51,721 nt of DNA, taken from positions 1-51,721 of the forward strand of contig JASHQA010000297.1 of assembly GCA_030037785.1 (NCBI GenBank). Reading direction: 5' to 3'. The DNA comes from Streptosporangiaceae bacterium. GTDB lineage: Bacteria > Actinomycetota > Actinomycetes > Streptosporangiales > Streptosporangiaceae. A program made the translations under genes and the position numbers. The notes beneath the pieces were generated by a model. It was not told where the DNA came from. It worked only from the letters and a program-made list of their open reading frames with translations, and ran no database searches. Shown here piece by piece: positions 2,096 through 40,097 of the stretch. The number at the start of each line of letters is the position of its first letter. Position 1 is the first letter of the stretch.

Positions 2096-2270
2096 GGCGA
2101 GGCATCCTGTCACACCTGCCCGCCCCGGTGAGCGTCCAGCTGCGTTGTGCGATGCTGCCAGCTGGGGTGGGCCGCTGACTGCGGTGCATGGCCGGCTGCC
2201 TGAGTGCCTGTTACTCCAGTGACGGGAGTGATTGCGCCATGGTACGACCTACGGTAGAAAAAGATGGGCA

Positions 2271-2324
2271 GGCGATGAGGCTCGCCGCTAACCGCGAACT
2301 TCGATTCGCTGATGGCCTCTACCA
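2271..2324 (+). promoter_or_regulatory. Fluoride riboswitch (crcB RNA), copy F1
   Basis: GGCGATGAGGCTCGCCGCTAACCGCGAACTTCGATTCGCTGATGGCCTCTACC: P1 GGCG/CGCC, P2 GCGAA/TTCGC, pseudoknot GAGGC/GCCTC; near-identical core to the Thermotoga petrophila aptamer. Confidence 0.95.
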
Positions 2325-2361
2325 CGATGGCCGGGGAACCGGCGTGGCAGAGGAGAGAGTG

Positions 2362-19196: not shown

Positions 19197-19218
19197 CCGC
19201 CTCCACCGTTCCGGTACA

Positions 19219-19270
19219 CGGTAGAAGCCGTTAGCCGTCACGGCAGTTTTCAGGCGGGCCTCATCGCCTG
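19219..19270 (-). promoter_or_regulatory. Fluoride riboswitch (crcB RNA), copy F2
   Basis: Reverse complement CAGGCGATGAGGCCCGCCTGAAAACTGCCGTGACGGCTAACGGCTTCTACCGTG: P1 GGCG/CGCC, P2 GCCGTGACGGC, pseudoknot GAGGCC/GGCTTC. Confidence 0.92.
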
Positions 19271-19509
19271 AGAAGATCATACCCGCAAGCCCCTGCAGCG
19301 CGGACGCTGGCCGACCGGTGCGAAAGACGCACCCAGCTCTCGTGTCGGCGCGCCCGGCGCCCCCTGCCTTGCCTGGCGCAGACCTGGGACGGAAACCCGC
19401 GGCGCGCTGCTGTTGCCGACAGCACCGGGCCCGTAACGCGCGCCACGCCCGCCCCAGCAGATGAATGCTTTACCGGACGCGAAGCCGGATTTATGATCGG
19501 AAGTGCAGA

Positions 19510-19580
19510 CGGCGGAGGGGCTCGCCGTTAAATAGCGATAGCCGCCAACGGTCCCTGTCCAGCGCAGGACAGGGAGGCTG
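19510..19580 (+). promoter_or_regulatory. Variant crcB-like riboswitch candidate V1
   Basis: CGGCGGAGGGGCTCGCCGTTAAATAGCGATAGCCGCCAACGGTCCCTGTCCAGCGCAGGACAGGGAGGCTGC: P1 CGGCG/CGCCG, short P2 GCG/CGC, pseudoknot AGGGGC/GTCCCT, competing hairpin CCCTGTCC/GGACAGGG next to GGGAGG. Confidence 0.68.
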
Positions 19581-19988
19581 CATGCCCCAATGTTGGGCCG
19601 TGACTTCGGCATGGCCGCTACCGTCTCTCGCAGCGCGGCAGCCTGTCTTGCTGCGCCGCACAGCGCGTCGCGTGGCGGGACGGGCCTGGACCCCACCAGC
19701 TCGTTGGGCTTGGCCCGTTACCTCTGCCGAGCGCTCTCGAGGCCGTCGCTAGGGCTGACTCGCATCTCGTGCTCCTCGGCCAGCCGGCTCGGACTGGCCG
19801 CAAGCATGCACCTGCCGGCGCTTACCTAGTCGCGCGGCGAGCGAGTCCTCCGCACGCTGGCGGGCTTCCCGCGGCCGTCCAGCCGGGCGGGTTGCGCATG
19901 TCCTGCCGTACCCGCGCGCACCAGCTTTGTGCACTGCAGACGTGTCGGCCACCCTGGCCGACCGAAATAGAACAGGAGTGATCAGCAA

Positions 19989-20615
19989 ATGTCGACATCA
20001 GGTACTACCGGCGAGCAGGCTGAAGGCCAGTCGGCGCCTGCCCGGGCAGTAATGGCCAACCCCGCGCCGTGGGCCGTAACGGCGTTCGGCACCACCTCAT
20101 TCATGATCGGCATGTACCAGACGGGCATACTGAACTCCGCCGGGACCCCCATCGTGCTGCCTGCGGCCTTCTTCTTCGGCGGCCTCGTGCAGATCATCGT
20201 CGCGATCATGGAGTTCTCGCGCGGCAACCTGTTCGCGGGTGCAGTCTTCGGTACCTACGGGCCGTTCTGGGTGATACTGGGAGCATTCGACACGATCTAC
20301 GCGAGCAGCGTGCCGGCTGCGCAGCTCTCCTCGGCCACCGGCCTGTTCCTGGCCGTGTTCGCGGTGATCACGTTCTACCTGGCCGTCGCCTCGCTGCGCA
20401 CCGACCTGGTACTCACCGTGATCATCTGGCTGATCTTCGTCGGGCTGGTCCTACTCTCCGTTGGTGCCTGGGACAACCTCGCCAACGTGACCAAGGCCGG
20501 CGGCGCGGTCGTCCTGCTGTTCGCGGTGCTGGCCTGGTACCACGCCGCCGGTGACATCATCGAGTCCACCTTCGGCCGCAAGGTACTCCCGTTCGGCCCT
20601 GCGCCGGTCAAGTAG
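19989..20615 (+). CDS. satP: GPR1/FUN34/YaaH (SatP-like) acetate/succinate transporter
   Basis: NPAPWAVTAFGTTSFMIGMYQTGILNSAG...FFFGGLVQIIVAIMEFSRGNLFAGAVFGTYGPFW; SD AGGAG upstream. Confidence 0.9.
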   Translation: MSTSGTTGEQAEGQSAPARAVMANPAPWAVTAFGTTSFMIGMYQTGILNSAGTPIVLPAAFFFGGLVQIIVAIMEFSRGNLFAGAVFGTYGPFWVILGAFDTIYASSVPAAQLSSATGLFLAVFAVITFYLAVASLRTDLVLTVIIWLIFVGLVLLSVGAWDNLANVTKAGGAVVLLFAVLAWYHAAGDIIESTFGRKVLPFGPAPVK

Positions 20616-20630
20616 ACGATCGCCGGTCAC

Positions 20631-20670
20631 AGCGCGGGCGGGACCTGAACCCTCAGGGCCTGCCCGCGCT
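20631..20670. terminator. Strong inverted repeat between convergent satP and GTPase genes, possible bidirectional terminator
   Basis: AGCGCGGGC ... GCCCGCGCT. Confidence 0.6.
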
Positions 20671-20734
20671 GGCACCTGGCCATGGTAACGGGCTTAGCGC
20701 AGACGACAGGCCGGCGGCGGCTTCGACGTCTCTT

Positions 20735-22567
20735 TCAGTCACCTGAGTGACCGCTAGGCTCATGGGTCGTGTCGCGGCCGCCACTCGTGCCTGCTCCCGA
20801 CGGCCGCGATGCTGTGGCAAGCATCTCAAGCAGCCGACCGAGTTCCTGCTGCCGCTGGGCCAGGCTGGCATCCTGCCCGGCCGCCTCTCCGGCGGTTGCC
20901 TGTCGCTGGGCCGCGGCTACGCGCAGTGCGTTCTCCAGTCGGCTCGTGCTGTCGGTGTAGCGGGTTTCGACGTCGCGGATCAGCCGTCGGGTCGCCTCCG
21001 CGAGCCGGTACTGGAGGTCGGCTCGGGCGCGGCCGATCTGCTGCGGTACAAGGTCGCCGGTTTCGCGGCGCAGATAGTCCCGCGCCCGCCGTCGGCCCGC
21101 CTCGCCGGGCAGGCGCCGGCGGATCGCTCCGGCCAGCAGTTCCGTCTGCCCTGCCTCCTCCCTGACCACGTAAAAGAACCGCAGGTCCGGCACCAGCCGG
21201 TCACCCGGACCCGGTACCGCCAGAGCAAGGCCGAGCAGCCCGGCGGCAGCATCGCGGACCGCGTCGAGCTCGGCCCGCAGTTCGGCAGCGAGCCGCGCGT
21301 CGAGCCTGGCCAAGCCGTCCTCCAGCCGTAGCGCCTGCTCCTGCCGCCAGGCCTCGGCTTCGGCGACGGCGAGCTCGCCGAGACGGACCCGCCCGGCACG
21401 CTCGATGTCGGCGGCTTGTGCCGACCGCACATTCGCGGCCAGCAGGCTCTCAATATCTGCGGTCACGCGGCGGGTGGCCTCCTTCGAGGCCTGCTCCGCG
21501 GCCTCGTTGAGGGCCGCCAGCATCCGGGCCGACTCGGCGGACGCCAAGTCCGCGGCGTCCTGACGCCGCACCGCGACAGCCGCCAGCCGCGCCTCGAACG
21601 CCTCCACCCGCCCGGCCGCCTCTCCGGTGCGCATCTCCGCCGCACGGCGGGTCAGGTTGGCTTCGTCCAGCAGCGAGCGAGCGAGCCGCTCCGCGTGACC
21701 GGCAACCGACAGCCGCAAGTCGGACGCTCGCCCGGACTCCAGATAGTCAGCGAAGTCGGCGGCGAACGCGGTGAATCCTGGATCTCCGGCCGCTGTCAGC
21801 GCGGCCCGCGCTGACAGCGGGTATAGCCGGACAGGCCGTCCCACCGCCTCGGCCGTAACGCTCGCGGCGAATTCGAGCGCCTCGGCCAGTTCGCTGCGAC
21901 GGTTCCCGTTCAGCCCACTGTCAATCGACCCGGCCGGCGGCGGGACATCAGGGGACAAGTAGTCCGCCTTGTTCAGCACGACGAACATGCGCACCGATAG
22001 CCGCGCCACCCGAGACATCAAGTCCCGCTCGCTGGCCGACACCGGCGGGTCAGCGGTGAGCACGAACACGGCCGCGTCCATCGTCTCCAGCGCCAGCTCC
22101 GCCTCGGCCGTGTTGTGGGCGTACACCGACCCCGTGCCAGGAGTGTCGACTAGCTCGACGCCGCGGGCCAGCAGTGGCGCATCGATGATCACCGTGACCG
22201 CCGCCAGCCCGCGCTTGTTGCTGGGGTTGCCCCGCTCGGTTACCAGGTCGTCCAGGGCTGACAGTGGATGGCTCTCGGCCCGGCCATCCCGCAAGAGAGC
22301 GGTCACGCCCTCGTCCGGCCCGTACCGCACCGCCGTGGCCAGCGCCGTCAGCGGCGTCACCCCAGAAGGCAGCACCTGTCGTCCCAGCAAAGCGTTGACC
22401 AGCGTGCTTTTGCCCCGCTTGGCTTCCCCGGCGACCAGCACACGGAGTCGGCGCTGCTGAAGCCGGTCATGCAGCTCCGCCAGCGCCGCGCGGTCGTGCG
22501 GGTCGGCCAGAGCGGACAGCCCGTCGAGCGCAACAGCCAGGACGTCGCCATCGTCAGGTGATCGCAC
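20735..22567 (-). CDS. Second dynamin-like GTPase
   Basis: P-loop GEAKRGKST, VDTPGTGS, VVLNKADYLS; GTG start with SD GGGAGG. Confidence 0.87.
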   Translation of the reverse strand: MRSPDDGDVLAVALDGLSALADPHDRAALAELHDRLQQRRLRVLVAGEAKRGKSTLVNALLGRQVLPSGVTPLTALATAVRYGPDEGVTALLRDGRAESHPLSALDDLVTERGNPSNKRGLAAVTVIIDAPLLARGVELVDTPGTGSVYAHNTAEAELALETMDAAVFVLTADPPVSASERDLMSRVARLSVRMFVVLNKADYLSPDVPPPAGSIDSGLNGNRRSELAEALEFAASVTAEAVGRPVRLYPLSARAALTAAGDPGFTAFAADFADYLESGRASDLRLSVAGHAERLARSLLDEANLTRRAAEMRTGEAAGRVEAFEARLAAVAVRRQDAADLASAESARMLAALNEAAEQASKEATRRVTADIESLLAANVRSAQAADIERAGRVRLGELAVAEAEAWRQEQALRLEDGLARLDARLAAELRAELDAVRDAAAGLLGLALAVPGPGDRLVPDLRFFYVVREEAGQTELLAGAIRRRLPGEAGRRRARDYLRRETGDLVPQQIGRARADLQYRLAEATRRLIRDVETRYTDSTSRLENALRVAAAQRQATAGEAAGQDASLAQRQQELGRLLEMLATASRPSGAGTSGGRDTTHEPSGHSGD

Positions 22568-22641
22568 CGCTGCCTCCCGCCACCATCAGGCAGGGACCGT
22601 TGGCGGCAGCGCCGCTGTTCCGGCGAGTCCCTCCGCCGTTC
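22568..22641 (-). promoter_or_regulatory. Variant crcB-like riboswitch candidate V2
   Basis: Reverse complement ACGGCGGAGGGACTCGCCGGAACAGCGGCGCTGCCGCCAACGGTCCCTGCCTGATGGTGGCGGGAGGCAGCG-GTG: P1 CGGCG/CGCCG, P2 GCGGC/GCCGC, pseudoknot AGGGAC/GTCCCT, CTGCCT/AGGCAG can mask the SD. Confidence 0.7.
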
Positions 22642-22757
22642 TGTTGTCTCAGGGTACTCAGCTGAACTGTACTGGCCCGTAGCTGCCACCAGCGGGACTC
22701 AACAGTCTGCAGTCGGCTGATGCTCGCGTCGGTGCCGCTCGCTGGGGGGTCGTTGCG

Positions 22758-23141
22758 TCAGGACGAGCTCGCCGAAGGAGCGGACTGCGTGCAGCGCGTC
22801 GACAGTGACGCTCTGCACCCTGTGGCATTGCTTGTGCAGAAAACGACAACCACAGCGGCGAGCAAGGCTACCAGCGGCACCAACACGAGTATCACCAGTC
22901 CGGCTCGGCGCAGGATCACGGCTGGCTGACGCCGCAGCGTCCGCGTGCGTGTTCGCTGGGCTCGTCGCGTGGGGTCAAGCACCTGCTGCCACTTTGCCCC
23001 GACTTGCTCGCGAGCGGGCATCACCTCGTCGGCAGTCAGCAGCGTGAATGTATCCAGGAGACCGGCGAGGACGGGATCTGACACCGTCAGGCCTTCAGAG
23101 ATGCAGTCCAGCTCGCGGCGCTCGTGTGCGCTGAGAGTCAT
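22758..23141 (-). CDS. DUF3040-like small membrane protein
   Basis: MTLSAHERRELDCISEGLTVSDPVLAGLLDTF...; two hydrophobic residues blocks form a TM segment. Confidence 0.7.
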   Translation of the reverse strand: MTLSAHERRELDCISEGLTVSDPVLAGLLDTFTLLTADEVMPAREQVGAKWQQVLDPTRRAQRTRTRTLRRQPAVILRRAGLVILVLVPLVALLAAVVVVFCTSNATGCRASLSTRCTQSAPSASSS

Positions 23142-23194
23142 AGGGCCGCTCGCCCTGCGCACTTGGACGGCACAAAGCCGAGAGTCAGTGACAT
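23138..23194 (-). CDS. 18-aa leader ORF overlapping (ATGA) the DUF3040-like gene
   Basis: ATGTCACTGACTCTC...GCCCTATGA = MSLTLGFVPSKCAGRAAL*; preceded by GGTGGAGG. Confidence 0.5.
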   Translation of the reverse strand: MSLTLGFVPSKCAGRAAL

Positions 23195-23228
23195 CGATCC
23201 TCCACCGATGCTCGCCGAAACGGAAGCA

Positions 23229-23287
23229 AGGTAGAGGCCATCAACCTTGGTGACTAGGCCAGGGTGCGTACGCGAGCCTCATCGCGC
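23229..23287 (-). promoter_or_regulatory. Fluoride riboswitch (crcB RNA), copy F3
   Basis: Reverse complement GCGCGATGAGGCTCGCGTACGCACCCTGGCCTAGTCACCAAGGTTGATGGCCTCTACC: P1 CGCG/CGCG, P2, pseudoknot GAGGC/GCCTC. Confidence 0.9.
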
Positions 23288-23430
23288 AATGACATCAGAA
23301 TACACCGCTCGGCACCGGCTCCCGGGGCGCGTCTGGTGGCCCAGCGCGGCGGCCGTGCCGGCCGGACGCCGTCGGCTCGGTGTGTGCGGAGGAACCGGGC
23401 CCTATACTTGACGTACGCGGCTTGCCCGCA

Positions 23431-23537
23431 GTCCGGCGCTGGAGCCCGCCGGGGCGTTATGTGGTTCAACGCCCGATTGCCAGCGGGGCCGATGGCTCCT
23501 GCTTCGTGAGCGCGCTAGCGGCCCGAGGGGCAGGAGA
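23431..23537 (+). promoter_or_regulatory. Divergent crcB-topology leader RNA (element E)
   Basis: CCGGCG-CTGGAGCC-CGCCGG hairpin; loop GGAGCC (23441-23446) pairs with GGCTCC (23494-23499) preceded by CGAT; inserted hairpin GGGCGTT/AACGCCC; CTCCTGC can pair with the SD GCAGGAG just before ATG 23538. Confidence 0.6.
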
Positions 23538-23879
23538 ATGTCGACATCGGCGTCGAGACCGCTGCACCAGCCGAAACAATTCGGGCGCCTGTGGTGGCTG
23601 CCTTCTCGGGGGATTGGCAACGGTCTGACCGATGCTGGGTGGGCACCTCTCGCCGACATCGATGCCAGCATCGTCTCGCCGCTGCTCGCGGAGTTGCGCG
23701 CGGCGGGCGTAGCCGCGCACGCCGCGCCCGTAACCGGCCGGCCGAGCCGATCCCGCCAGCGCGGAACAGCTTCGGGCGCCCCTCAGTACCGCCTCTGGGT
23801 AGGCACGAGCGGCTACAGCCGTGCCGAAGAAGTGCTCCGCACGAGGATTCCCGCCCTCCGTCGGCGGGCTAGCTCATAA
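23538..23879 (+). CDS. Small conserved hypothetical protein
   Basis: ADIDASIVSPLLAELRAAGVAAHAAPV...YRLWVGTSGYSRAEEVLRTRIPAL; SD GCAGGAGA. Confidence 0.65.
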   Translation: MSTSASRPLHQPKQFGRLWWLPSRGIGNGLTDAGWAPLADIDASIVSPLLAELRAAGVAAHAAPVTGRPSRSRQRGTASGAPQYRLWVGTSGYSRAEEVLRTRIPALRRRASS

Positions 23880-23883
23880 CTGG

Positions 23884-24168
23884 CTACTCCTCGGCCAGCA
23901 GCCGGGCGCACACGCCGAAGAGCCTGAGGTCGGCGGAAGCCTCGGCCTGCCGGCCGAACGCCGCGATGTCGCCGCGCGTCAGTGACTCCCAGCAGGAGAC
24001 GTCCGCCAGCGCGATGGCCCGCTCAGCGGCTGAGACCAGGGCACTTGGCCGTCCATTCTCGACCTCGAGTTGCAGCCGCGCGACGTCCTCGGCCGGCCCT
24101 CTGCTAGCGACCGCCCGCAGCGCGCCGAGGCGCACCGACAACTCCCCGATGAGATATTGCCGCGTCAT
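23884..24168 (-). CDS. Hypothetical protein
   Basis: MTRQYLIGELSVRLGALRAVAS...; ATGA overlap with upstream NUDIX gene. Confidence 0.6.
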   Translation of the reverse strand: MTRQYLIGELSVRLGALRAVASRGPAEDVARLQLEVENGRPSALVSAAERAIALADVSCWESLTRGDIAAFGRQAEASADLRLFGVCARLLAEE

Positions 24169-24629
24169 GCCGAAGCCTCGGGCCGCCACAGGTTGGCCAG
24201 ATACGGCGCGTAGCGTCGGCCTGACTGACCGAGCATGCCGCGCAGGTGACCAGCCAGCGGCGGACGCAGGTCGAGATCCTGAAGGCTGGTCAGTGGCTTG
24301 AAGGCAGGCTGCAGGCCCGGCTCCTGCTGCTGCGGCTGCTGGCCCGGCTCCACCTCGCGCGCCAGGAACACCATGTCGACTGTCCGTGGGCCGCGCTCTG
24401 GTGCGAGCACCTCGAGCACGAACGCCACCCCTGCAGGATCTACGTGCAATCCTGTCTCTTCCCGCACTTCACGCCGGGCGCACGCGGCCATGCTCTCGCC
24501 TTGGCGCGGCGTGCCGCCGGGCAGCGACCAGATGTCGGCGGCACCGCCGACGCGGCAGACCAGCAGCACGTCGGTACCGTGCACAACCACGGCTGAGCAC
24601 CGCAGCGCTATGCCATCAGGCAGGCTCAT
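24165..24629 (-). CDS. NUDIX hydrolase
   Basis: Nudix box GGTPRQGESMAACARREVREETGL. Confidence 0.9.
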   Translation of the reverse strand: MSLPDGIALRCSAVVVHGTDVLLVCRVGGAADIWSLPGGTPRQGESMAACARREVREETGLHVDPAGVAFVLEVLAPERGPRTVDMVFLAREVEPGQQPQQQEPGLQPAFKPLTSLQDLDLRPPLAGHLRGMLGQSGRRYAPYLANLWRPEASA

Positions 24630-25300
24630 GACACCGCCCTTCTGGACCGGACCCCAGCCCGGTGCGGTCCGCGGCCACGGCGGGCGGCAACCCGGACCAG
24701 CTCGAGCCATCCTGCGGCGAACAGCCAGCCGGCGAGAACGTCGCTGGGCCAGTGCACGCCCAGGCAGATCCGGCTCGCACCAACTCCGGCAGCAGCCGCG
24801 GCGACGGCTGCATCACGGCCGCGGCGGTCCGCGCCGAGGGCGGTGGCGCATGCTCCCGCCGTGAGGCCGGCAAGCGAGGTGTGCTTGGATGGCAGGCTGA
24901 AACCTTCCGGCTCGATCAGCCACCCGGCGGCGGGTGGTCGCGGCCTAGCGACCAGCCCCGACAGTCTGCGGCGGACCGCCATGCCGGCTATCACGGTCAC
25001 GCAGGGTCGGCAGGCGGCCTGCCAGCCCTGCGTCCGCGCGGCGATCGCGGTGGCGGCGGCGAGTGGCACTATCGCGACCGCAGGCTCCGCCAGCGCGCTG
25101 ACGGCGTGCGCGGTGCGAATCGCGGTCACGTTCCTACGCTGGACGACCACGCTGGTGACGCTCTCGTCGATGGCCCTGAGCCGGGCACCCGTCGGCCGTG
25201 CGGCGAGCACCGCCACGTAGGCAAGCGCAGCACCCCACACGACGGCGCGCACACCCGCGTGGTCGCGGTCAGGATCCTCCGTCGTGCTGGGGGAACGCAT
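24626..25300 (-). CDS. PAP2-family phosphatase
   Basis: LPSKHTSLAGLTAG and SRICLGVHWPSDVLAGWLF; ATGA overlap with NUDIX gene. Confidence 0.8.
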   Translation of the reverse strand: MRSPSTTEDPDRDHAGVRAVVWGAALAYVAVLAARPTGARLRAIDESVTSVVVQRRNVTAIRTAHAVSALAEPAVAIVPLAAATAIAARTQGWQAACRPCVTVIAGMAVRRRLSGLVARPRPPAAGWLIEPEGFSLPSKHTSLAGLTAGACATALGADRRGRDAAVAAAAAGVGASRICLGVHWPSDVLAGWLFAAGWLELVRVAARRGRGPHRAGVRSRRAVS

Positions 25301-25600
25301 GTACGCCGCCACACCGGGTCCGTTCTGTCGCAGACGACAGGATCCATCGGCCATCAGGCAGGGCGGCTAGTCGGCAAACTGACTTCGAGCCAGCGACCGA
25401 GCTAGCTTTCGGTGGGATCCACCACCGAGTGGGCGCGCCACTGCCTTCAGCATAGATCACTTGCGGCCTCGTGCGTCGCTGGCAGCATGCCACCGCTTGC
25501 CGGTCCTGGACGAATCGATCTGCTGAGCCGCCCGGCGGGCGTCCCGGCGGGCGTCCCGCCGGGTTCTGGGCCGGACCGCGAAGTTCGGTTACGCTACACG

Positions 25601-25677
25601 CAGCGGCGGAGGGGCTCGCCGTAGTCTGCGGAGACGCCGCCAACGGTCCCTTGCCAGAGGGCAGGGAGGTTGGCGCA
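25601..25677 (+). promoter_or_regulatory. Variant crcB-like riboswitch candidate V3
   Basis: AGCGGCGGAGGGGCTCGCCGTAGTCTGCGGAGACGCCGCCAACGGTCCCTTGCCAGAGGGCAGGGAGGTTGGCGCA-ATG: P1 CGGCG/CGCCG, P2 GCGG/CCGC, pseudoknot AGGGGC/GTCCCT, CCTTGCC/GGCAGGG overlaps the SD. Confidence 0.7.
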
Positions 25678-26590
25678 ATGCGCCCGAGCGGTGAAGTTTT
25701 TGGCTGCGCGCATGCCTTTTCCGCGGACTGGCGGCGCGGTGTTCCGAGCGATGAGATGACCGTCGTCGTCAGCCACCTTTACGTCTGTGAGGGACTATCC
25801 ACCTACCGGATCGGCGAGCTGGTCGGGATGAACCGGCAGCGGGTCCGGCGGCTGCTCGCTCACGCCAGAGTGCCGGTGAAGCCCAGGGGAGCCGGTCGGC
25901 GGCGACCACTGAGCGAGGAAGACGCGGTGGCCACCGACGCGATGGCGCGGCTCTACGTCGAGTCGGGTTTGAGTACGGTTCAGATCTCAGCGCTGACCGG
26001 CGTGCCGGACCGCACGGTGCGGGATCGGCTGCGGTCGCGCGGCGTGCGGATGAGAACCAGGGGACCGCTCAACCGGGAGGACCGGACGTCCGTGCCTGCC
26101 GACGCGATCGCCGAACTCTACGTTTCGGGTGGCCTGTCGGCGGCAGATGCGGGCCGAATGCTGGGCGTGTCCGGACAGATCGTGCTGCGCGCAGCGCATG
26201 ACGAAGGTCTTCCGGTTCGTGTCGGCGGGCCAGAACCCAGCAGCGGCCCGGCCGAGATCGAGCTCATTGACGCGCTCTACGCCGACCCGCTGGTTGCACA
26301 CGCGCTGGCGCGGCACTGCATCAAGCGCAGGCCCGCCGGCGGGCCGATCTGGCAGCGGTTCCCGGTCCCGGTGCGGGTGAGCCGTGAGCTGGCCATCGAG
26401 CTGTACGTCGGCTGCGGTCTGTCGGTACGTCACATCGAGCTGCTCACCGGCCAGCCGTCGCAGACGGTTCTGCACCTGCTCGAGGTTCAGGGAGTCGCTC
26501 GGCGCGTTCCGGGCGGCCGGTCGCCGTTTCTTCGCCGCTGGCGGGCTGGAACCGACGCTCGCGCTGGCGATACCGCCGACCGCGGGTTAG
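25678..26590 (+). CDS. Protein with four tandem HTH-like repeats; 3' end uncertain (possible frameshift)
   Basis: LYVCEGLSTYRIGELVGMNRQRVRRLL / LYVESGLSTVQISALTGVPDRTVRDRL / LYVSGGLSAADAGRMLGVSGQIVLRAA / LYVGCGLSVRHIELLTGQPSQTVLHLL. Confidence 0.75.
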
Positions 26591-27789
26591 GGGCGGGCTG
26601 GATAGCCGCCAAAGACGGCACCGTCGAGAAATGCGGCCGCGCGCCGCCAGGCTCCAAAGTCGCGGGCAGCGGCACCGCGGCCGCGGGCCGCCGCGGCGGC
26701 GTCGAACGCGTCGGAAAGCTCGCGGATCAGCCCGTCGGCAACCTCGACGGCTGCGTCGGCCAGCACGTGGCTGGCTCGCGGGTCGGTCGCCCGCAGCTGA
26801 AGGTGGTGGCGGACGCAGAGTGCTGGCCAGGAACCGGGCCGCCGCGCGGCCGTGACGTGGGTGAGGACGCCCTGCGCGGCATCCCGGCGGGCCCGGCACA
26901 CGGCGCACTCCTCGGTCGGAGGTCGGCGGCGTCGGCCTGTTCGCAGCCAGTGAACGGGTCCGGCGCCCAGCCGAGCTGCCACGCAATCGGCCTGCCAGTC
27001 CAGCAGGACACGCAGGTCGTGCCCGCCGCCGGTTGCCGTGGCCGCATCCGCGAGATGCGTGGCGCACAGCGTCCTGGCCGGATGCGGCCCGTCGCTCGCG
27101 AGGCCCGCCAGCCGGTCAAGCGCGTCCCGCTCGGCCTGCGCGCTCGCCAGGCACGGTGGGCAGGCCGTCGGCGTCGGGAGCCCGGTCTTAGGTACCGACC
27201 TGCGCAGCACGGCACGGGTTTCCGCGTCTGGATCGGTACCTGCGAGCCAGTCGAGATGAGCACCGCCAGCCGCAATCGAGTCCCGGAGTGTCTCGGTCAG
27301 CCACGCGACCGTTTCGCGTCGCCCGAGCGTGGCGCCCGCGGTAAGGTGCGGCAGGCACACCCCGCCGAGCTCCCGGCAGCGGTACATCGTCGCCGGGTCG
27401 GCCAGGCCCTCGATCAGCGTGTCGAGCGCCCGGCCTGCGGCCGCGGCGTCGTGCTCGCAAGCCGGGCACGACGCGAGCCGGTCGGCGCGCCCCGCCAGCC
27501 GGTCCCTGGCTCCTCGCACCACGTACCGGTACACGGCAGTCATCCGGACGGCAGCGCCCGGCTGGCTCAGCAGTCGGCGCGTATGCGTCGCGCACGGGCC
27601 CAGGCAGGCGCACAGGCGAGTGATCGTGTCTGGTTGCGCGTGTCCTTCGAGCGCGAACCAGCGCAGGTAGCGGTCGCTAGCCTCGGCCCAGTACCGGCAC
27701 ACCGGGCAGCCGGGCGCCGTGAGCAGGTCCGCCGCGTCGTACAGGGTGAGGACCGACGGCCCGCGCGGCATCGGGGTGGCGGCCGGCAC
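26587..27789 (-). CDS. Cys/His-rich protein with four CxxC...CxxH modules
   Basis: CPVC..CATH, CPAC..CLPH, CPPC..CATH, CAVC..CVRH; same module type as the C-terminus of the 11280-13685 GTPase. Confidence 0.78.
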   Translation of the reverse strand: MPAATPMPRGPSVLTLYDAADLLTAPGCPVCRYWAEASDRYLRWFALEGHAQPDTITRLCACLGPCATHTRRLLSQPGAAVRMTAVYRYVVRGARDRLAGRADRLASCPACEHDAAAAGRALDTLIEGLADPATMYRCRELGGVCLPHLTAGATLGRRETVAWLTETLRDSIAAGGAHLDWLAGTDPDAETRAVLRRSVPKTGLPTPTACPPCLASAQAERDALDRLAGLASDGPHPARTLCATHLADAATATGGGHDLRVLLDWQADCVAARLGAGPVHWLRTGRRRRPPTEECAVCRARRDAAQGVLTHVTAARRPGSWPALCVRHHLQLRATDPRASHVLADAAVEVADGLIRELSDAFDAAAAARGRGAAARDFGAWRRAAAFLDGAVFGGYPARP

Positions 27790-27813
27790 GCTAGCCGTCC
27801 GCCCGGCCGGGTG

Positions 27814-28098
27814 TCACGGTCCGATCCGGGTGAGGTCCGGCGACAGCAGGTCGAGCAGCCTGCTGCACGGCCACGAGGCTCGCCTGCGCTCGGTCTCCGC
27901 GGTGGTCTCTTCCAGGCTGGCGGCCCAGTCGTCTTGCTGACCGTGCCAGCGAGGGCAGCGATCCTGCAGCGGGCAGTCGCTCCGAGCCGGATGACCGCGC
28001 GGACGGCAGCGAGGCTGGCGGCCCGACCGGAACGCCCGCAGCGATCGCCATAGCAGAAGAACCTCGTGCTCGCTCACCCTGGACATGACTGCCGTCAC
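27814..28098 (-). CDS. Small Cys-containing hypothetical protein, probably first gene of the V4 operon
   Basis: MTAVMSRVSEHEVLLLWRSLRAFRSGRQPRCRPRGHPARSDCPLQDRCPRW...; 24 bp upstream of the Cys/His gene. Confidence 0.6.
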   Translation of the reverse strand: MTAVMSRVSEHEVLLLWRSLRAFRSGRQPRCRPRGHPARSDCPLQDRCPRWHGQQDDWAASLEETTAETERRRASWPCSRLLDLLSPDLTRIGP

Positions 28099-28162
28099 CG
28101 CCTGTTCGCGGATAGGGACCGTCAGCGGCGGCTACCGCGCTTCGGGCGAGCCCCTTCGCCGG
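28099..28162 (-). promoter_or_regulatory. Variant crcB-like riboswitch candidate V4
   Basis: Reverse complement GGCGAAGGGGCTCGCCCGAAGCGCGGTAGCCGCCGCTGACGGTCCCTATCCGCGAACAGGCG-GTG: P1 GGCG/CGCC, P2 GCG..CGC, pseudoknot AGGGGC/GTCCCT, CCGC/GCGG over the start region. Confidence 0.65.
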
Positions 28163-28251
28163 GCAGTAAGTCTGGCAACGGCGGTGCCCAGCGGTCAAGG
28201 CCGCGCTGGCCGCCCCTTGTCGTGCAGCCGCTCCGCCGGCACAATGACGAT

Positions 28252-28306
28252 GGCGATGAGGCCCGCCGTAACCGCGAAACGAGACTCGCTGATGGCCTCT
28301 GCCTGG
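28252..28306 (+). promoter_or_regulatory. Fluoride riboswitch (crcB RNA), copy F4
   Basis: GGCGATGAGGCCCGCCGTAACCGCGAAACGAGACTCGCTGATGGCCTCTGCC; CTGCCT/AGGCAG would mask the SD of the next gene. Confidence 0.95.
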
Positions 28307-28328
28307 TAACCGAGTGGAGGCAGACACG

Positions 28329-28781: not shown

Positions 28782-28910
28782 GCCGACGGGCTCGGTGCCG
28801 CGACCGCGGTCCGCGGCGTGGTCCTGAGGCCGGTCACGGTCACGCGACGCGCGGTCACGACACGCATAACGGGTACCACGCCCCAGACGTGATGTGTATG
28901 CTGGCCAGCA

Positions 28911-28965
28911 CGCGATGAGGCTCGCGTAGGCGTCAGGGCTCTTCCTGGCTGATGGCCTCTACCTG
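28911..28965 (+). promoter_or_regulatory. Fluoride riboswitch (crcB RNA), copy F5
   Basis: CGCGATGAGGCTCGCGTAGGCGTCAGGGCTCTTCCTGGCTGATGGCCTCTACC; P1 CGCG/CGCG, P2 CAGG/CCTG, pseudoknot GAGGC/GCCTC. Confidence 0.93.
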
Positions 28966-28985
28966 CACGGTTTCGTGCCGCCCAG

Positions 28986-39857: not shown

Positions 39858-39885
39858 GCGTGCTCCTGTCCTCGCCTCGCGGCGG

Positions 39886-39941
39886 TCGTCAGGAGCCATT
39901 AGCCATCGCTGGCGGTCGCGCGGACGAGCCCCATCGCCTTC
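39886..39941 (-). promoter_or_regulatory. Fluoride riboswitch (crcB RNA), copy F6
   Basis: Reverse complement GGCGATGGGGCTCGTCCGCGCGACCGCCAGCGATGGCTAATGGCTCCTGACG; P2 GCCA-GCGA-TGGC; GCTCCTG/CAGGAGC would mask the SD of the MutS-like gene. Confidence 0.9.
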
Positions 39942-40097
39942 GCGCAGTTTACCGGCAGGTCCGCGGGCGCGGCGATCCGTCCGGCTCTCGCCAGCGAGCC
40001 GCGGGCGGTGCAAAGAAGGCGTGAAGATCGCCGGGGACGTCGTTAAGAACGTATCAAGATCGCCGGGAACTGGCTGGTCAGGAGCGAAGCTGGGAAC

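Follow-up and report, generated by a model that had tools for sequence, protein, structure and literature searches.

A natural variant of the fluoride riboswitch with G-C in place of A-U at positions 6 and 38, uncatalogued in Rfam 15

A 51,721-nt stretch of DNA from a Streptosporangiaceae bacterium, here called the window, carries four RNA elements (V1–V4) that keep the scaffold of the crcB, or fluoride, riboswitch and depart from it at residues of the ion site. The first-pass annotation of this DNA had proposed that they form a distinct variant class, which might sense another ligand, or fluoride over a different range. Two questions are raised by the locus: do V1–V4 belong to a class of their own, and do they still sense fluoride?

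Four variant aptamers in a fluoride island

V1–V4 are the sole matches of a gapped pattern in the window, where 0.00 are expected by chance (100 dinucleotide shuffles), and they are all of its matches in a scan of the 4.34-Mb genome (Table 1), which confirms the four elements where they had been annotated. In the numbering of the Thermotoga petrophila aptamer, V1–V3 read G6 A7 G8 and C38 A39 A40 C41 G42 G43 U44, and V4 reads A6 A7 G8 and U38 G39 A40 C41. The earlier reading of GAG, GAG, GAG and AAG at positions 6–8, of C, C, C and U at position 38, and of C41 beside retained A40, G42 and U48 was reproduced in full. Two further changes had been missed. Position 39 is also altered (A, A, A and G in V1–V4) and tracks 6/38, and C44 is replaced by U44, so that the pseudoknot pair 11-44 becomes G-U, or A-U in V2. 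Published work on the fluoride aptamer describes A6-U38 as reversed Watson-Crick and A40-U48 as reversed Hoogsteen (PMC11586693; PMC10687018); the annotation had called both reversed Hoogsteen, which holds for A40-U48 and not for A6-U38. The minimum free energy folds of V1–V4 alone are undistinctive (z -1.6 to +0.7) because the pseudoknot cannot be scored.

The Rfam 15 fluoride model RF01734 (gathering cut-off, 34 bits) misses V1–V4 in a search of the window even at E<=10, and in the same window it finds three ordinary fluoride riboswitches above the cut-off and three more below it. V1–V4 are thus not scored as ordinary crcB RNAs, and none of the other Rfam families fits them. G6 elements in 20 loci likewise all stay under the RF01734 cut-off; detected relatives of the GUG type score 18.5–24.8 bits, a shortfall of about 10 bits, and the GAG type is undetected. 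No account of a G6-C38 variant was found in the open-access literature, subscription papers lying outside the search.

Positions 1–40000 of the window form a fluoride island with about ten riboswitches in total. It holds operons of the hydrogenase-4/formate-hydrogenlyase type, together with genes for enolase, several MutS-like proteins, two GTPases of the dynamin-like kind, a universal stress protein, SatP, Nudix and helix-turn-helix proteins. The dynamin family found under V2 also follows elements in relatives L021, L022, L110 and L094, and relatives of the helix-turn-helix protein under V3 lie under the same element in L025, L027, L029, L052, L055, L070, L097, L100 and L107. Relatives of the small cysteine-containing protein encoded under V4 are found behind the same element in L099, L052 and L023 and behind the G-C form in L081 and L229. 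The order of V1 followed by SatP is repeated in L107 and L129. Between V1 and SatP (19582–19988) lies a short open frame with a start (MLGRDFG) that L129 and L107 conserve and L070 keeps in part; this frame is a candidate for the gene under the control of V1, or else a remnant.

Table 1. Features of the window, with positions counted from its first letter
Feature	Position	Strand	Basis	Details
V1 aptamer	19511..19556	+	pattern match	G6 A7 / C38 A39 C41; P1 start 19511
V2 aptamer	22592..22637	-		G6 A7 / C38 A39 C41; A11-U44; P1 start 22637
V3 aptamer	25605..25651	+		G6 A7 / C38 A39 C41; P1 start 25605
V4 aptamer	28114..28160	-		A6 A7 / U38 G39 C41; A-U form of pair 6/38; P1 start 28160
V1 platform	19553..19577	+	sequence, RNA fold	CCCUGUCC (19553-19560, including the 3' pseudoknot strand) pairs GGACAGGG (19567-19574)
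V2 platform	22573..22595	-	sequence, RNA fold	CCCUGCC pairs GGCGGG beside GGGAGG, then GTG start 22567
V3 platform	25648..25669	+	sequence, RNA fold	CCCUUGCC pairs GGCAGGG, overlapping GGGAGG; ATG 25678
SatP-type acetate/succinate permease (GPR1/FUN34/YaaH)	19989..20615	+		about 430 nt after V1
Dynamin-family GTPase gene	20735..22567	-	Pfam PF00350	under V2
Helix-turn-helix protein gene	25678..26610	+		under V3
Small protein gene	27814..28086	-		under V4; ~90 residues, conserved cysteines, no Pfam family
Canonical fluoride riboswitch	2262..2328	+	RF01734	44.9 bits; before hydrogenase-4/formate-hydrogenlyase type operon
Canonical fluoride riboswitch	19215..19277	-	RF01734	39.7 bits; before paired MutS-like genes
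Canonical fluoride riboswitch	28243..28308	+	RF01734	42.9 bits; before universal stress protein gene, divergent from V4
Fluoride riboswitch below cut-off	39883..39947	-	RF01734	29.6 bits; before another MutS-like gene
Fluoride-riboswitch match below cut-off	23426-23508	+	RF01734	23.3 bits
Fluoride-riboswitch match below cut-off	28902-28968	+	RF01734	21.5 bits

Distribution of the class and covariation at positions 6 and 38

A first covariance model, built from V1–V4 and run on 100 relatives, gave matches in 36 of them (E<=0.1). With models derived from V1–V4, more than 130 distinct relatives were recovered in Actinomycetes. Scanning public genomes with a sequence pattern added loci in Actinacidiphila, Streptantibioticus, Streptacidiphilus, Actinocatenispora, Micromonospora, Propionicimonas, Micropruina and others. 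Further examples with compensatory changes, on which the annotation had staked the class, are thus abundant. A refined model from 59 sequences was applied in a survey of 396 genomes of the class, in which each strong match was read. The G6 form is present in 61 of these genomes (68 elements), with E-values reaching 1e-19 per genome; of the 396, only 13 have an RF01734 match above the cut-off. With no above-cut-off RF01734 match in 55 of the 61 genomes that carry the G6 form, curated searches overlook most of the regulon.

Outside the class, among 298 genomes drawn from the phylum Actinomycetota, a readable element was found in 15 of the 16 loci matched by model R2, and all 15 have the A6-U38 form. 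As this is the only form seen there, the G6 form looks derived within Actinomycetes, on the sequences surveyed. One outside-class aptamer (L253, minus strand) has U38 and U41 together with A6 A7, from which the replacement of U7 by A appears to have arisen separately from the G-C swap. Some of the pattern matches in other phyla, for example those ending in GACGGYTTCT, are chance matches in coding sequence and were dropped, and five model matches judged false or truncated were left out of the aptamer set. A locus labelled Acidobacteria (L108) holds a true element before crcB, and its contig may be mis-binned. Plasmid copies of the variant were sought and none was found.

The annotation had noted that 6 and 38 change together, from G-C in V1–V3 to A-U in V4. 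This is upheld by 164 distinct aptamers, in which 6/38 is G-C in 134, A-U in 29 (V4 and 28 others) and G-U in one, with the top mutual information of all column pairs; these aptamers were gathered by means of patterns and models of the variant type, which leaves the A-U form under-sampled, and the covariation counts are inflated by relatedness. The published A6-U38 pair is thus replaced by G6-C38 in V1–V3 and in most of the set. Position 39 follows 6/38, with A beside G-C and G beside A-U, and C41 (140 of 164 aptamers overall) and U44 are near-fixed in the G-C form. G8, A40, C47 and U48 are essentially invariant, and the linchpin pair A40-U48 is retained (A40 in 163 and U48 in all 164). At position 42, the phosphate of which binds Mg in the known fluoride aptamer structure, A replaces G in 22 of the 164 aptamers (L171, L172, L180, L208 and others).

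In five gene-family trees, which are small and have weak branch support, 6/38 changes at least 2+2+2+2+1 times (about nine), both sides together. Stepwise forms are extant: AUG/UGACGG, AAG/UGACGG, GUG/CAACGG and GAG/CAACGG. The fluoride aptamer is a textbook anion-binding RNA, and its conserved core is held to include A6-U38 and U41. A natural class with other residues there, standing before crcB in many Actinomycetes, amounts to evolution's own mutational test of the ion site, with living intermediates.

The alignment of the 59 sequences has standard pairs throughout P1 and the pseudoknot (100%) and in 94.8% of P3, with two-sided changes in P1 and P3. The given structure outdoes each of 500 shuffles whichever measure is used and, in cells paired, every slid register. 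Position 22 is mostly C, which with A39 gives C-A in most sequences, and there is no compensation for the change from G39 to A. The element is short, and GC-rich genomes yield many GGCG/CGCC arms, which would favour degenerate or chance sequence, a DNA repeat or a protein site over a functional RNA. Against this stand the zero chance expectation, the compensatory changes in P1, P3 and 6/38, the leader position with a promoter box, and the E-values and genome counts given above, and such an origin is exceedingly improbable. The proposal of a distinct variant class on the crcB scaffold stands: Rfam 15 is blind to V1–V4 and 6/38 changes in a compensatory way in many further examples. By their sequences V1–V4 are members of a large, uncatalogued natural variant of the fluoride riboswitch, its novelty being measured against Rfam 15 and the open-access literature.

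Expression platform and proposed mechanism

The 3' strand of the pseudoknot, with the bases next to it (typically CCCUACCU), can pair with the Shine-Dalgarno region, AGGUAGGAG. The duplex of V1 overlaps a Shine-Dalgarno-like GGGAGG (19572–19577), comparable pairings are present in V2 and V3, and the pairing is weak in V4. Across 134 G6 elements the duplex between the pseudoknot strand and downstream sequence has a mean z of -2.0, with a Shine-Dalgarno-like motif at or just after it in 108. In 126 of 165 elements a TANNNT box is found no more than 40 nt upstream, compared with 3–9 of about 155 in control stretches, and by its placement transcripts probably start close to P1. The pairing with the Shine-Dalgarno site suggests a translational ON switch. 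Fluoride, together with Mg, would stabilize the pseudoknot of the variant aptamer, which would keep the CCCU-ACCU strand off AGGUAGGAG; the ribosome site would then open and the fluoride-response gene be translated.

The variant resembles the RF01734 aptamer in its P1, P3, H-type pseudoknot and invariant G8, A40, C47 and U48, in its place in the leaders of crcB, enolase, mutS and ABC-F genes, and in the overlap of its pseudoknot strand with the expression platform (here a Shine-Dalgarno duplex, weak in V4). It differs by G-C for A-U at 6-38, A39 for G39, C41 for U41, U44 for C44 and, often, A7 for U7. In tRNA the Levitt pair 15-48 is a purine-pyrimidine contact of reversed Watson-Crick geometry, G-C in some cases and A-U in others. 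Pair 6-38 of the variant alternates likewise, an analogy of geometry only, drawn from a different RNA.

Downstream genes and the ligand

In the class survey, whose elements were not selected by gene, crcB, the gene of the fluoride exporter, directly follows 55 of the 68 G6 elements. The pattern-scan loci were picked by sequence, so only this survey is used for figures on gene association. Five downstream crcB proteins, from relatives and public-genome loci, were confirmed as Pfam PF02537. Other genes after variant elements encode enolase, MutS-like, dynamin-like, ABC-F and histidine-phosphatase proteins, Na/H exchangers and DUF2180. Canonical switches occur in the same loci as variant elements, and both forms share the MutS, phosphatase/PGM, ABC-F, helix-turn-helix, V4-type, Nudix, Na/H exchanger and DUF2180 families. 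Canonical crcB RNAs before mutS and formate hydrogenlyase genes have already been reported (PMC2864571). Because in many Actinomycetes the variant stands directly before genes for fluoride export, fluoride is almost certainly still what it senses, to judge from gene context. In contrast to crcB in most G6-carrying genomes, the tandem crcB genes of the source genome (G000 contig C180:9282-10365, L168) have no fluoride element of either kind upstream, and the crcB link of V1–V4 therefore comes from relatives.

V1–V4 very probably belong to a variant class of fluoride riboswitch that originated in Actinomycetes. They have the fold of the fluoride aptamer, with P1, P3 and a pseudoknot of the P1 loop with the 3' strand, and the reversed Watson-Crick pair 6-38 is G-C in V1–V3 and still A-U in V4. 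Linked replacements are those of G39 by A, U41 by C, C44 by U and, often, U7 by A. The low RF01734 scores, the uncompensated A39 and the weak platform of V4 count against this reading, as does the Bacillus cereus fluoride riboswitch, in which U41A abolishes the fluoride response (PMC11077080); the change at 41 here is to C, unlike U41A.

The suggestion of another ligand is unsupported by the position of the class directly upstream of crcB and other fluoride-response genes, and by its interchange with canonical switches before the same families. A sensor of something other than fluoride, be it a metal or another ion or a small anion such as formate or acetate, would account for the replacement of several conserved residues around the ion site and for the acetate-type permease that V1 precedes at a distance, and core changes switch the ligand in other riboswitch classes (PMC7266159). 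It is nonetheless very unlikely, given that crcB, enolase, MutS, PGM-like and other fluoride-regulon genes lie directly downstream and that canonical and variant forms swap before the same gene families. Moreover, fluoride is held via Mg and phosphates (established structure, cited in PMC11586693), so that base changes need not alter specificity. Like the variants of the purine and guanidine-IV riboswitches, the class carries natural core substitutions on a conserved scaffold; those variants have evidence of a changed ligand, whereas the gene context here argues that the ligand is unchanged.

The variant may differ in fluoride affinity or range. Variant elements may be fluoride sensors tuned to another range or speed and placed beside canonical switches for graded responses, a refinement compatible with the fluoride-sensing class that we hold tentatively, at somewhat less than even chances. 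Both kinds occur in the window, and among the sampled elements crcB is found mainly after the G6 form and hydrogenase-type operons after the A6 form. Pseudoknot strength tunes switching (PMC11077080), and the variant has a wobble at pair 11-44. Lineage history could, on the other hand, account for the split by gene, given that crcB is also found at a distance behind two canonical elements (L203, L204). It is unlikely that the G6-C38 class is altered in what or how it senses, whether by responding to another ion or to a metal-fluoride species, or by binding fluoride with a markedly different affinity by way of a re-built metal cluster; if it were so, one regulon would hold two chemically distinct sensors.

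The variant elements tie uncharacterised proteins to fluoride stress. In Streptomycetaceae, a small membrane-type protein of ~85 residues that belongs to no Pfam family follows a variant riboswitch (L054:3658-3918 and L089 after 6166, both on the minus strand), and its position makes it a candidate for a new fluoride-response protein.
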